64,000 nucleotides of DNA. Origin: Candidatus Magnetobacterium casense. GTDB taxonomy: Bacteria; Nitrospirota; Thermodesulfovibrionia; Thermodesulfovibrionales; Magnetobacteriaceae. Below are positions 22,843-26,947 of the stretch, in pieces. Position 1 is the stretch's first letter. Each line of letters starts with the position of its first letter. Location: the NCBI RefSeq assembly GCF_000714715.1, contig NZ_JMFO01000003.1, forward strand, positions 186,001-250,000, in the 5' to 3' direction. A program made the translations under genes and the position numbers. The notes beneath the pieces are model-generated. The model was not told the DNA's origin, did no database searches, and was given only the letters and a program-made list of their open reading frames with translations.

Positions 22843-23274
22843 TTACAGCAATCCGGCGTGTTTCAGGGCCTCTTTCAGCTCCGGGTCCTTATCGGCTTTT
22901 TCTTTAATTGCCAGTTCCAGTTTCCCGGTTCGGGTCTCAAGTTCCTTGACGGTTGCTGCCAGAGGTGCCAGGATTGTTCGTCTGTCCCATAAGGCAAAAC
23001 CGACAATAAAGAGCATACCGCTTATGGTTACGCTGATCATTACGTATATCAGTCCCCTGAGATCGTCGATTCTCTGGCTGGTAGCCTTAAAGCCATCGTC
23101 CATCCTTTGGTTTGTGGCCTTCAGGCCGTCGTCGATCTTTTGATTTGTAGCCTTTAAGCCCTCTTCCAGCCGGACCAGCCGTTCCCTGTCCGCCTGCGTA
23201 AACGACGAATCAGCAGCGTCTACTACAATCGTCATTCCAATCATCAAGGTAAAAACTATCATTATAGTTCTCAT
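22843..23274 (-). CDS. membrane-anchored coiled-coil protein
   Basis: The product is 143 residues. A signal peptide or membrane helix (1-21) is followed by a coiled coil made of three 11-residue repeats (GLKATNQKIDD, GLKATNQRMDD, GFKATSQRIDD; about 35-67), a transmembrane helix (about 73-96) and a charged helical tail. The family occurs widely as a small protein of unknown function; the 11-mer repeats suggest a rod. It converges on the diguanylate cyclase gene with a 6-base gap. Confidence 0.75.
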   Translation of the reverse strand: MRTIMIVFTLMIGMTIVVDAADSSFTQADRERLVRLEEGLKATNQKIDDGLKATNQRMDDGFKATSQRIDDLRGLIYVMISVTISGMLFIVGFALWDRRTILAPLAATVKELETRTGKLELAIKEKADKDPELKEALKHAGLL

Positions 23275-23367: not shown

Positions 23368-23439
23368 AGCGGGCGACGGGATTCGAACCCGCGGCCTAAA
23401 GCTTGGGAAGCTTTCACTCTACCACTGAGTTACGCCCGC
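23368..23439 (-). tRNA. tRNA-Gly (anticodon CCC)
   Basis: On the minus strand a full cloverleaf can be drawn: acceptor GCGGGCG/CGCCCGC, D-arm with AGTGGTAGAGT, anticodon stem AAAGC/GCTTT with loop TTCCCAA (anticodon CCC), and T-arm GCGGGTTCGAATCCCGT. The discriminator is T (U73), as expected for glycine, and CCA is not encoded. Confidence 0.95.
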
Positions 23440-23502
23440 AATTTACTAACCGGATATATTATAATATATGTACAGAGAAAAAACAACAGGAGGTTGGTGA
23501 CC

Positions 23503-25011
23503 ATGATGCGAGAATTTTTTATTTTTTTGTTTCTATTACCCCTTGTGCTGCTGTGCAGTCTTAATGCCAATGGCGCTGTTATTGTCAGCGACTACGAGGC
23601 GCAGTTTAGGGTTGTCCCCAATGAATCAGGACGACTTGAGGATGTTGCCGTTACCCTGAAGATCACTTATGCCGCCACCAACCAGACACTCGGCAAGGGA
23701 TTCAAGTTCGTAGGCACGGACAAGGTCAGACAGGTGCGTGTCAGCGATGAACACGGCGATATCCACTTTAGTGTTGATAAACTCCGTGAGACGAAGATCA
23801 GCTTTAACTTTACCCCTATAATCCGAGGCAGGAAGTTGATTACCATAGATTTTCTGCTCGAAAGAGCACTGAAAAACGGATTGTTATCGAGTAAGTTTAA
23901 TGCCCCGTGGCTTGGCAACTGGAACATTCCCGTTGACATGGCCAGGTATTCCTTCGTGTTGCCGGATAAGTACAGCCACGGCAGCATTGAAGCCAATATA
24001 CCATACACGACAACGACCGCTCCATCCGGTGCGGAGATAATCGCATTTGAAGAGACCCCTCTGAAGACCCGGCACCTCAAAATAGAGATCAGTCCGGCAG
24101 TCAGCGGACATAAGTTATCGTTTTTGATTGCCTGGGTAGCCATTTCCCTGTTTGCCGTAATCGTCAGTGTAATTAAGCGATTGAGACTGCCTCAACCACC
24201 AATCATGGATGCCCAACAGCCCACACCGGCCGAAGTCGCATATCTGAAGAAAGGCTCCAAACATGCCGTCTGCGTAGCGATCTTTGACCTGATACAGAGA
24301 GGCTTTTTGCAGCAAGCGCCAGAGAGAGGACACATATGCCAGAATGCAAGCAAAAAAGATGACAAGGCCATTACCACCTCCTACGAGTATGGTGTCGTGT
24401 CTTTTTTTGGCCGACCTGCGACGTTGAGGGACTTGTTTGCTAATAGCGCTGCAATAAAGGCATTTAAGAAAGAACTCCTCGACGTACTGAGACGCAAGGG
24501 ATGTCTCATAAGCAGTTATGACAAGCAGTCTTTCTTTTCTACGGTGTTGTTTACCAGCATACTGGCTGTGATTGCCCTTATTGCAATGGGGGGCAACCTT
24601 GGGATTGACACGGGTGTTATTGTGTTGTCCCTTGCCGTGCCGGTGATATGCACAATCTGGGCGGTTGTTTTCTTGATGTCAACAGTTAAATCACACAGAG
24701 CCATGAAAGTCCTGTCCGACTTTGAGCAAGCCATAGACAGAGACAATCTGATATTGACAAGCAACCAGCAATACAATCCACTGTTGGGTTACGCCATTGC
24801 CATAATCGGAATATCAATCCTGGTGGGTACGATATATGACACGCTGTTGCCGAGCATCTCTTACGCCCGGGCGATGAACGCAGGGACGAGTACGGCGTGT
24901 AGTTCGTGCAGTTCCACTGTAGATGGTGGCAGCAGTAGTAGTAGTTGCAGCAGTTGCAGTAGTGGAGGCGATGGCGGGGGCTGTGGTGGTTGCGGTGGGG
25001 GCGGTGATTAG
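23503..25011 (+). CDS. DUF2207-like membrane protein with CxxC-rich C-terminal tail
   Basis: The product is 502 residues from ATG 23503, 9 bases after AGGAGG. A signal peptide (about 1-25) leads to an extracytoplasmic beta-rich domain, TM at about 205-225, a cytoplasmic region, and further TM segments around 345-400 and 425-447. The last 37 residues are Ser/Gly/Cys-rich with three CxxC pairs, CSSC, CSSC and CGGC, starting at Cys466. This shape resembles DUF2207/TIGR04222-type proteins with low-complexity tails. The radical SAM gene starts inside its last codons, so the tail is a plausible modification substrate. This is inference; no such chemistry is visible. Confidence 0.8.
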   Translation: MMREFFIFLFLLPLVLLCSLNANGAVIVSDYEAQFRVVPNESGRLEDVAVTLKITYAATNQTLGKGFKFVGTDKVRQVRVSDEHGDIHFSVDKLRETKISFNFTPIIRGRKLITIDFLLERALKNGLLSSKFNAPWLGNWNIPVDMARYSFVLPDKYSHGSIEANIPYTTTTAPSGAEIIAFEETPLKTRHLKIEISPAVSGHKLSFLIAWVAISLFAVIVSVIKRLRLPQPPIMDAQQPTPAEVAYLKKGSKHAVCVAIFDLIQRGFLQQAPERGHICQNASKKDDKAITTSYEYGVVSFFGRPATLRDLFANSAAIKAFKKELLDVLRRKGCLISSYDKQSFFSTVLFTSILAVIALIAMGGNLGIDTGVIVLSLAVPVICTIWAVVFLMSTVKSHRAMKVLSDFEQAIDRDNLILTSNQQYNPLLGYAIAIIGISILVGTIYDTLLPSISYARAMNAGTSTACSSCSSTVDGGSSSSSCSSCSSGGDGGGCGGCGGGGD

Positions 25012-26005
25012 GGTATCCGGCTTTGATCCGTATTTCTATCTCCAATGGCATATAAACAGCCAGTGCAACCTCAGTTGCGCCCACTGCTATGTGCAACAGC
25101 GCAGGGCCGAACCGGACGAAACCAATCTGTTTCTGATCCTTGCCAAGTATAAGGACTTTCTCAGACAGAAGGGCATAAAGGGGCGGATTCAGTTCTCCGG
25201 AGGAGAGCCGTTTCTGTCGAAGTCACTGATGCCGCTGTTGCTTCAGGCAAGGAAAGACGGCATCCCAACGCGAGTGCTCTCAAACGGGACACTGATAACC
25301 GCAGATGTCGCCTCCGCCCTGCAACGGACGGGGTGTCGCACCGTCCAGATATCCATCGATGGCGACGCCTCCGTGCACAATGAACTCAGAGGCAGCAACA
25401 ACGCCTTTGAGCGTGCAACTGAAGGTGCCATCCACCTGCGAAACAATAACGTCCCCGTCACCTTTATGATGACCGTCTCACGGCACAACCACCTGAGTCT
25501 CAAGTCCGTCTGGGACGTTTCACGGCAATATGCCGACAGGTTTTCCTTCTCGCGGCTTGTCCCCATTGGTGTAGGCAGCCGGATGAGTGACGACGTCCTG
25601 ACAGTGAAAGAGACCAGGCGTCTGTTTGAGACGTTTCATGAGCTGAAGCCGGACGACACAAATCCCGTATCCAAGCCCATGCGTGACCCCCTGTGGCATC
25701 CCTACTTCAAGCGTTGTAACCTGCATCTGCTAAACGGTTGTTCGATAGGCTACAACGGCGTCTGTATTGACAGCGACGGGACGGTCTATCCGTGCAGGCG
25801 TCTGCCCATACCACTTGGAAATGTCATGACAGACGACTTGGCCGATATCTACAACTCAGATGTCCTCAACCAGCTCAGAGACAGGGATATGCTAAAGGGC
25901 AAGTGCAGAAGGTGTCCCATGCGGTGGCAATGTGGTGGCTGCCGCGCCATTGCATATGCCCTGACGGGCGATTATCTTCAGCAAGACCCGCAGTGCTTTC
26001 GGTAA
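25004..26005 (+). CDS. radical SAM/SPASM-domain maturase-like enzyme
   Basis: The product is 333 residues from GTG 25004, overlapping the previous stop by 8 bases; the longer in-frame extension to 24923 merely re-reads the Cys/Gly tail and was not used. The radical SAM cluster CNLSCAHC has Cys21, Cys25 and Cys28. FSGGEPFL follows. The C-terminal SPASM-type region has CSIGYNGVCIDSDG, YPCRR and CRRCPMRWQCGGC, able to hold auxiliary iron-sulfur clusters. Such enzymes modify peptides or proteins, forming thioethers or other cross-links. The tight coupling points to the CxxC tail of the upstream membrane protein as its target. Confidence 0.88.
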   Translation: MIRVSGFDPYFYLQWHINSQCNLSCAHCYVQQRRAEPDETNLFLILAKYKDFLRQKGIKGRIQFSGGEPFLSKSLMPLLLQARKDGIPTRVLSNGTLITADVASALQRTGCRTVQISIDGDASVHNELRGSNNAFERATEGAIHLRNNNVPVTFMMTVSRHNHLSLKSVWDVSRQYADRFSFSRLVPIGVGSRMSDDVLTVKETRRLFETFHELKPDDTNPVSKPMRDPLWHPYFKRCNLHLLNGCSIGYNGVCIDSDGTVYPCRRLPIPLGNVMTDDLADIYNSDVLNQLRDRDMLKGKCRRCPMRWQCGGCRAIAYALTGDYLQQDPQCFR

Positions 26006-26023: not shown

Positions 26024-26947
26024 ATGAATCACGGGATGGTAAAACCAAAGAGACAAAGCTCACCCCTTAACCCTGGCGATATCATTGGTATAGTTTCGCC
26101 TTCTGATCCGCTTTGTTATTGCGATGATCTACGCAGGGGGATCGAGTACCTGGAGCGTCTTGGGTTTCGCACGGAGGTGGGCAGATACATCGGCTCACCC
26201 GTACCTGGGGAAAGGGCGGAGGATATAAACGACTTTTTCGGCAGGGGCGATATCAGGGCGATATTTTCAACGCAGGGTGGCAACAGCGCCGAAGAGGTCT
26301 TGCCGCATTGTGACATGGACGTCATACGGGCAAATCCCAAGATTTTTATGGGACTCAGTGATGTGACGGTGTTTTTAAATGCCATACATCACAGGACGGG
26401 GCTTGTCACCTACCATGGCAACAACGTGCGTCTTGGCGTCAACGCAGAATTGGACGCCTATGACAGGCATGAGCTTATTGACAGGCTCTGCCTTGGCAAG
26501 GCGGGCGATGTGAGACCACGCAGGGGACGCACTGCCATACGCGCCGGGGTGGGTAGGGGGAGGTTGCTTGGGGGCAATCTGAGGTGTCTTTTGAAGTTGA
26601 CCGGTACGGAGTTTTGGCCGGACTTTACCGATTCGATCCTGTTTATCGAGTCCTATCGCATTACGCCGGAGAGCTGTCTGAGGTACTTTGAGGTACTCCG
26701 GCATATGGGGGTTTTTGAGGGTGTGAGGGGGGTGCTTGTGGGATTTAACTACAGTATGCAGGTAGCGCATCCTGAGATGCGGCAGATGGAGAGACTGTTG
26801 GCCGAGTTTACGGATGGTTATGACTTTCCGATCCTGAAGGTTGAGGACTTTGGCCACTTTTGCCCGAACACTGTCTTGCCCGTAGGCTCTGTGGTCGAGG
26901 TGGACGCTAATGCAGGACGTATTACCATAATCCCCGATAGCGTTTAA
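26024..26947 (+). CDS. S66-family LD-carboxypeptidase / MccF-like
   Basis: The product is 307 residues. The fold signature is PGDIIGIVSPSDP at the start, AIFSTQGGNSAEEVLPH (about 86-102), the nucleophile Ser in GLSDVT (about 116), a Glu in LFIESY and a His in FGHFCPNTVLPVG near the end, giving the S66 Ser-Glu-His set. The family cleaves the LD bond of murein tetrapeptides during recycling, or inactivates microcin C-type peptides. It follows the radical SAM gene by 18 bases, so an immunity or peptide-trimming role is possible but speculative. No signal peptide. Confidence 0.85.
   Translation: MNHGMVKPKRQSSPLNPGDIIGIVSPSDPLCYCDDLRRGIEYLERLGFRTEVGRYIGSPVPGERAEDINDFFGRGDIRAIFSTQGGNSAEEVLPHCDMDVIRANPKIFMGLSDVTVFLNAIHHRTGLVTYHGNNVRLGVNAELDAYDRHELIDRLCLGKAGDVRPRRGRTAIRAGVGRGRLLGGNLRCLLKLTGTEFWPDFTDSILFIESYRITPESCLRYFEVLRHMGVFEGVRGVLVGFNYSMQVAHPEMRQMERLLAEFTDGYDFPILKVEDFGHFCPNTVLPVGSVVEVDANAGRITIIPDSV

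Follow-up and report, generated by a model that had tools for sequence, protein, structure and literature searches.

A radical SAM/SPASM enzyme as candidate maturase of the cysteine-rich tail of a TIGR04222 membrane protein in Candidatus Magnetobacterium casense

In a stretch of 64,000 nucleotides from Candidatus Magnetobacterium casense (contig NZ_JMFO01000003.1, positions 186,001–250,000; hereafter the window), the gene for a membrane protein with a cysteine-rich C-terminus is overlapped by a gene for a radical SAM/SPASM enzyme. Is the tail of the membrane protein the substrate of the enzyme, as a first-pass annotation had proposed, and if so, what would the modification be?

The tail protein and the overlapping radical SAM gene

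As read directly from the sequence and the list of open reading frames, the membrane-protein gene (502 aa, forward strand) starts at ATG 23503, with GGAGG at 23490, 8 nt 5' of the start, and ends with a stop codon at 25009–25011. The protein opens with a hydrophobic, signal-peptide-like N-terminus (residues 1–25, 23503–23577; hydropathy segment at residues 4–22), and its membrane-embedded part (24118–24837) comprises hydrophobic segments 206–224, 344–362, 372–390 and 427–445. The last of these segments is followed by a Ser/Gly/Cys tail of 48 residues (24865–25008) containing six Cys, which is the proposed modification site. The tail holds three C-x-x-C pairs, CSSC (24898–24909), CSSC (24946–24957) and CGGC (24982–24993), and terminates in GGGGD; the radical SAM gene begins at GTG 25004, inside the last codons, giving an overlap of 8 nt. 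Both the motifs and the overlap are as originally annotated. Just 5' of this Gly-rich tail gene, on the opposite strand, lies a tRNA-Gly (ccc; 23368–23439, −), and a small protein encoded at 22843–23274 (−) contains short repeats within it (KATNQRIDDG-like) and gives a weak match of the XhlA type.

The membrane protein had been described as DUF2207-like. This name was dropped, the Pfam match (E 0.06) being under the cut-off, and as judged by profile scores TIGR04222 is the better name (NCBIfam, 57 bits against a cut-off of 43, residues 212–443 of the TTG-start ORF). An AlphaFold2 model (pLDDT 81) displays a beta-rich N-domain (residues 26–197), helices and an unstructured tail; the Foldseek matches were limited to weak beta-sandwich similarity with M1 aminopeptidases and oligosaccharyltransferase subunits. 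From hydropathy, a cytoplasmic domain is predicted between segments 206–224 and 344–362, and the C-terminal tail is predicted to be located outside the cytoplasm. The spacing of the tail Cys is regular, with 75 C-x-x-C pairs in 26 tails as compared with 15.6 ± 3.5 in shuffled tails (0/2000), and the C-x-x-C end of the tail is kept in relatives.

For the enzyme (333 aa, 25004–26005, forward strand), the proposed tail maturase, the GTG start is backed by alignment, in which relatives open with M-[LI]-[RK]-[IV]-[SW]-G-F. Pfam Radical_SAM (3e-18) and SPASM (1.4e-12) both match, the CNLSCAHC motif (CxxxCxxC) and the Cys-rich SPASM end noted earlier are present, the latter with CRRCPMRWQCGGC...DPQC, and the Cys ligands are invariant across 17 clade members. 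By its sequence, the enzyme can be classed as radical SAM/SPASM in the broad sense. It lacks an extra N-terminal domain that could serve for precursor recognition (RRE).

We then compared the enzyme with curated families. All NCBIfam scores fall under the respective cut-offs: 167.8 bits for heme b synthase AhbD (TIGR04545, cut-off 500), 165.5 for SbtM (TIGR04082, equivalog cut-off 350) and 158.5 for the ACGX radical SAM family (TIGR04340, cut-off 400), and GeoRSP and NirJ2 likewise score under their curated cut-offs. The SPASM Cys spacing, common to nearly all, was useless for telling SbtM-like from AhbD-like enzymes. Since the enzyme falls under the SbtM cut-off and its AhbD score is equally good, homology does not fix its chemistry. 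Among solved structures, SkfB and the thioether-forming 5wgg enzyme are closest in sequence, SkfB likewise being a thioether former, and the neighbors by fold are SuiB, SkfB, anSME and PqqE; these nearest structures belong to maturases of peptides or proteins.

Pairing of tails and enzymes across genomes

We analyzed the association in both directions. In the forward survey, the TIGR04222 profile was run over 296 Nitrospirota genomes and the neighborhoods of the matches were examined. The family was found in 17 of the 296 genomes, and the co-occurrence that the first-pass annotation had asked about holds throughout: a radical SAM gene lies beside the Cys-tailed protein in 16/16 cases, with one intervening gene in loci L022 and L023, and with the enzyme running past the contig edge in L021. 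The sole Cys-free Nitrospirota member (L034) has a GGSW-type tail and no radical SAM neighbor.

In the reverse survey, the best 80 enzyme relatives were taken from genome contigs. Within the clade of the window's enzyme (43–80% identity), a Cys-tail protein lies directly upstream in 16/16 loci, compared with 0/64 for the next 64 of these relatives, where the forward and reverse counts share genomes (e.g., L030/L036 and L026/L037) and are not additive. With a clade-derived profile, members (≥440 bits) stand apart from other relatives (≤309 bits) in the tree sample. The clade spans Nitrospirota, Lentisphaerota, Planctomycetota, Elusimicrobiota and Riflebacteria, and close relatives are labelled Nitrospirae and Candidatus Magnetominusculus. 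No members beyond those already known were found in 150 Elusimicrobiota and 294 Planctomycetota genomes, in which L193–L195 and L197 gave background-level scores with no tail adjoining, and a search of a plasmid collection gave zero matches. Judged by gene order, the pairing of tail protein and radical SAM gene is beyond chance.

The genes flanking the pair vary between loci while the adjacency of tail and enzyme is conserved, and no third gene is conserved beside the pair among the ORFs ≥90 aa compared. The S66 peptidase encoded at 26024–26947 (Pfam 3e-29) had been suggested as a further member; this did not hold up, as S66 gave no matches in neighborhoods L019–L114 and is missing even beside the relative with 80% identity. 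Because the flanking genes vary and S66 adjoins none of the relatives, we limit the unit to two genes, and consider it reasonably probable that the window pair is a translationally coupled substrate–maturase unit.

Several individual loci deserve mention. In L032 (8469–9810) the enzyme and tail genes overlap, and the SPASM end and the N-terminal part of TIGR04222 are lost, probably through a deletion or an assembly fault. Radical SAM frames in L031 (8544) and L033 (10531) follow soon after the tail-protein stop without ATG, GTG or TTG where expected, which suggests the use of rare start codons. A second radical SAM gene near the pair, with SPASM N-terminal to the radical SAM domain, occurs in the Magnetominusculus group (L031:13003–14169, −; L033:7857–8972, +; L042:475–1620, +; L043:1281–2426, +; L044:3396–4466, +); its best NCBIfam match is the tungsten-cofactor oxidoreductase maturase, far under the cut-off. 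A TrkA-N/ion-channel gene (K+ channel type) is located directly 5' of the tail protein in L025 (181–1686), L026 (7663–9273), L029 (7019–8584; assigned by similarity to L026 only) and L039 (153–1796), and is not found upstream of the tail protein in the window.

Tails, scaffolds and exchanged enzymes

The scaffold carrying the tail proved variable. The upstream proteins in L046, L048, L049 and L050 have no TIGR04222 match and retain an N-domain alignable to that of the window protein, a single hydrophobic segment and a CSSC/CGGC-repeat tail; L019–L024 have the TIGR04222 core and the tail, and no N-domain. Across the loci compared, the constant element is the tail plus the enzyme, and the link, as read from these sequences, tracks the tail. 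In L046 (3230–5113), L048 (3387–5129) and L049 (158–2065), a separate DUF2207 C-terminal-domain protein without a Cys tail lies 5' of the short tail protein, an arrangement that looks like a division of scaffold and tail between two genes.

The enzymes vary as well. In a maximum-likelihood tree of 52 enzymes, those linked to tails occupy three places: (i) the window clade (18 rows, support 99/98), (ii) L022/L023, and (iii) L019/L020/L024, which are nested inside SbtM. Given the well-supported branches, the tail-linked label must have changed at least twice, and by this tree the radical SAM lineages paired with such tails number two at the least and probably three. The L019 enzyme is itself an SbtM (538 bits to TIGR04082, cut-off 350), and the three tail-linked Nitrospirota enzymes of this kind score 528–538 bits. 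Of 23 SbtM genes in the 296 Nitrospirota genomes, the three tail-linked ones, and no others, are missing the first ~195 profile positions, the remaining 20 being of full or nearly full length; a search of the SbtM N-terminus for a recognition domain gave no Pfam match.

According to the review PMC11002830, which describes the work of Lewis et al. 2021, SbtM converts Cys to thiooxazole with loss of 4 H. The SbtM/SbtA thio(seleno)oxazole RiPP system resembles the present one in having a radical SAM/SPASM enzyme and Cys or Sec in Ser/Gly motifs. SbtA-type short precursors lie upstream of full-length SbtM, their Sec residues set within S[SG]U[SGT] motifs, with a mostly-Cys version (GCGSSCG) in L184. 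Sec-containing precursors with signal-like N-termini occur 5' of full-length SbtM in L198, L170, L179, L202, L203 and L205, the hosts being Nitrospirota and Desulfobacterota-type genomes. The tails look like tandem arrays of the SbtA-type Ser/Gly unit with Cys, a likeness that is partly one of Ser/Gly composition, and the motif unit of the window's tail matches the SbtA-type motif. We offer this sequence likeness as a lead. SbtA is a short Sec peptide, whereas the proposed substrate here is the Cys-only tail of a polytopic, 502-aa membrane protein, and the window enzyme differs from SbtM in forming a separate clade under the cut-off.

A membrane protein as substrate, which the first-pass annotation considered unusual, is not wholly unprecedented: in 2025, MNIO enzymes were proposed to act on TIGR04222 tails, for the most part in Actinomycetota (PMC12452194, Microb Genom). 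Those systems share with the present one the protein family, a Ser/Gly/Cys C-terminal tail predicted to be extracytoplasmic and an adjoining Cys-modifying enzyme; they differ in the enzyme, an MNIO (PF05114), and in occurring mostly in Actinomycetota. We saw none of their PME-type 2 partner proteins next to the radical SAM pair, and radical SAM partners of TIGR04222 are not mentioned in that report.

We detected MNIO genes by profile beside Cys-tailed TIGR04222 proteins in L145, L147, L148 and L149 (Planctomycetota) and in L154 and L156 (Actinomycetota), those in L145, L147 and L154 overlapping. An adjacent maturase accompanies 22 of the 27 Cys-tailed TIGR04222 proteins whose tails are complete (radical SAM in 16, MNIO in 6), compared with 1/11 of the Cys-free homologues (Fisher p = 6e-5, relatedness ignored), which supports the earlier view that the enzyme acts on the tail. 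Cys tails with no radical SAM neighbor, which had been named as a sign against that view if numerous, do occur outside Nitrospirota (11/27), with an MNIO in that place in 6 of the 11. The other five (L144, L146, L161, L162 and L163) have no adjacent maturase; an MNIO does occur unlinked in genomes G835 and G398 (the latter weak), as does an L022-lineage enzyme in G317. Conversely, PF05114 is absent from 21/21 tested genomes with a radical SAM-linked tail (16 Nitrospirota and five other organisms). The window genome (G000) has no PF05114 match genome-wide and has the radical SAM gene in that place, and no locus was found with both enzymes beside the tail. A nucleotidyltransferase-like gene is common to the radical SAM loci L022/L023 and the MNIO locus L149, and is also found in L151; its presence in both contexts indicates a retained core around which the enzyme varies.

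The swap is most simply explained if both kinds of enzyme produce the same or a similar Cys-derived group on the tail. The recruitment of unrelated enzymes to such tails suggests an unrecognized way to build a metal-binding tail on a membrane protein. The TIGR04222–MNIO association has already been proposed, whereas the radical SAM branch and the MNIO/radical SAM swap appear to be new; a search of open-licence literature, with subscription journals outside its range, found TIGR04222 in two papers and returned none containing both DUF2207 and radical SAM.

Proposed modification and its implications

The best explanation of the whole, which we think somewhat probable, is a coupled pair that yields a Cys-modified, thiooxazole-bearing tail exported as a metal ligand. 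The TIGR04222 protein would be made with its Ser/Gly-rich C-x-x-C tail last, and the enzyme from the next gene would modify the tail Cys while the tail is still cytoplasmic; the modification must precede export if the tail end lies outside, as predicted, and the enzyme is cytoplasmic. The modified tail would then follow the last transmembrane helix across the membrane and, outside the cytoplasm, may act as an anchored soft-metal ligand, probably for copper(I). That the tail is the substrate of the enzyme we consider very likely from the conserved gene pairing. The likeliest product would be 5-thiooxazole, formed as by SbtM or MNIO at all or part of the Cys, each of which would lose 4 H; this is quite likely at the SbtM-type loci, and for the window's enzyme itself it is a nearly balanced call that we make with reserve.

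The group made by MNIOs is 5-thiooxazole, and peptides bearing it bind copper (PMC13097082). The captophorins/bufferins described there have several modified Cys on an exported chain and bind metal, as is proposed here; they differ in being free exported peptides with a Sec signal, made by an MNIO with a DUF2063-type partner. TolC-, CusB/CzcB- and CusA/CzcA-type heavy metal efflux genes are located just 3' of the pair in L029 (11041–16702). We infer the metal role, and copper binding by the tail, from this analogy in the literature together with the single locus L029.

The main rival is that the tail is modified by thioether cross-links of the sactipeptide/ranthipeptide type, from Cys to Ser/Gly carbons with loss of 2 H per link, which would fold or protect the tail. 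It holds this place because the window enzyme forms a separate clade under the SbtM cut-off and has thioether formers among its nearest solved folds: maturases of this type (SkfB, CteB and SuiB) are the closest solved sequences and folds, and the regular C-x-x-C spacing would suit short rings. However, the one tail-linked lineage with a characterized family is the thiooxazole-forming SbtM, the tail lacks bulky acceptor residues, and the enzyme is replaced in other phyla by MNIOs, which are not known to make simple thioethers. Known systems of this type further differ in their small leader-bearing precursors, RRE and thioether or C–C products, whereas the conserved partner here is the membrane protein, the only one among the ORFs ≥90 aa compared, rather than a small leader–core precursor. 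We regard thioethers as unlikely, and the loss of 2 H proposed in the first-pass annotation has become the less likely value, as SbtM, the nearest characterized tail-associated family, takes 4 H per Cys.

A reading in which the pairing is no more than an operon, the enzyme having another substrate such as a tetrapyrrole or an unseen small peptide, is improbable. It draws on the AhbD and NirJ2 scores, which are as high as that of SbtM, and on the AhbD/NirJ2-like and ACGX-like enzymes that form the next-best groups of relatives, but it would leave unexplained that the pair stays while flanking genes change, that the link tracks the Cys tail rather than the scaffold, that unrelated radical SAM lineages and MNIOs show the same link, and that the presence of tail Cys tracks that of a maturase. 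Equally doubtful is an unmodified tail serving as a plain thiol metal or Fe-S site, with radical SAM or MNIO supplying, e.g., a cofactor: regular C-x-x-C pairs are able to bind metals unaided and some Cys-tailed proteins (L144, L161–L163) lack a linked maturase, yet two unrelated superfamilies whose known members oxidize peptide Cys are both found at this spot.

Returning to the thiooxazole proposal, it is possible, though we advance it only tentatively, that Cys tails are a shared substrate for swapped superfamilies, MNIO in some phyla and, on more than one independent occasion, radical SAM in others (SbtM plus one or two further lineages), all making thiooxazole on a copper-binding, membrane-anchored tail. 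MNIO enzymes use oxygen and radical SAM enzymes do not; of the two branches, the one with radical SAM would be the oxygen-independent counterpart. If true, RiPP-type Cys chemistry would no longer be confined to small secreted peptides and would reach, via radical SAM, the tail of a structured membrane protein, MNIO chemistry would have an oxygen-free equivalent, and the loci would constitute a natural experiment in which one substrate is matched with unrelated enzymes. The predicted mass change, −4 H or −2 H per event, tells the thiooxazole from the thioether hypothesis. SbtM would gain a second context, and the role of the widespread, uncharacterized TIGR04222 proteins becomes testable.
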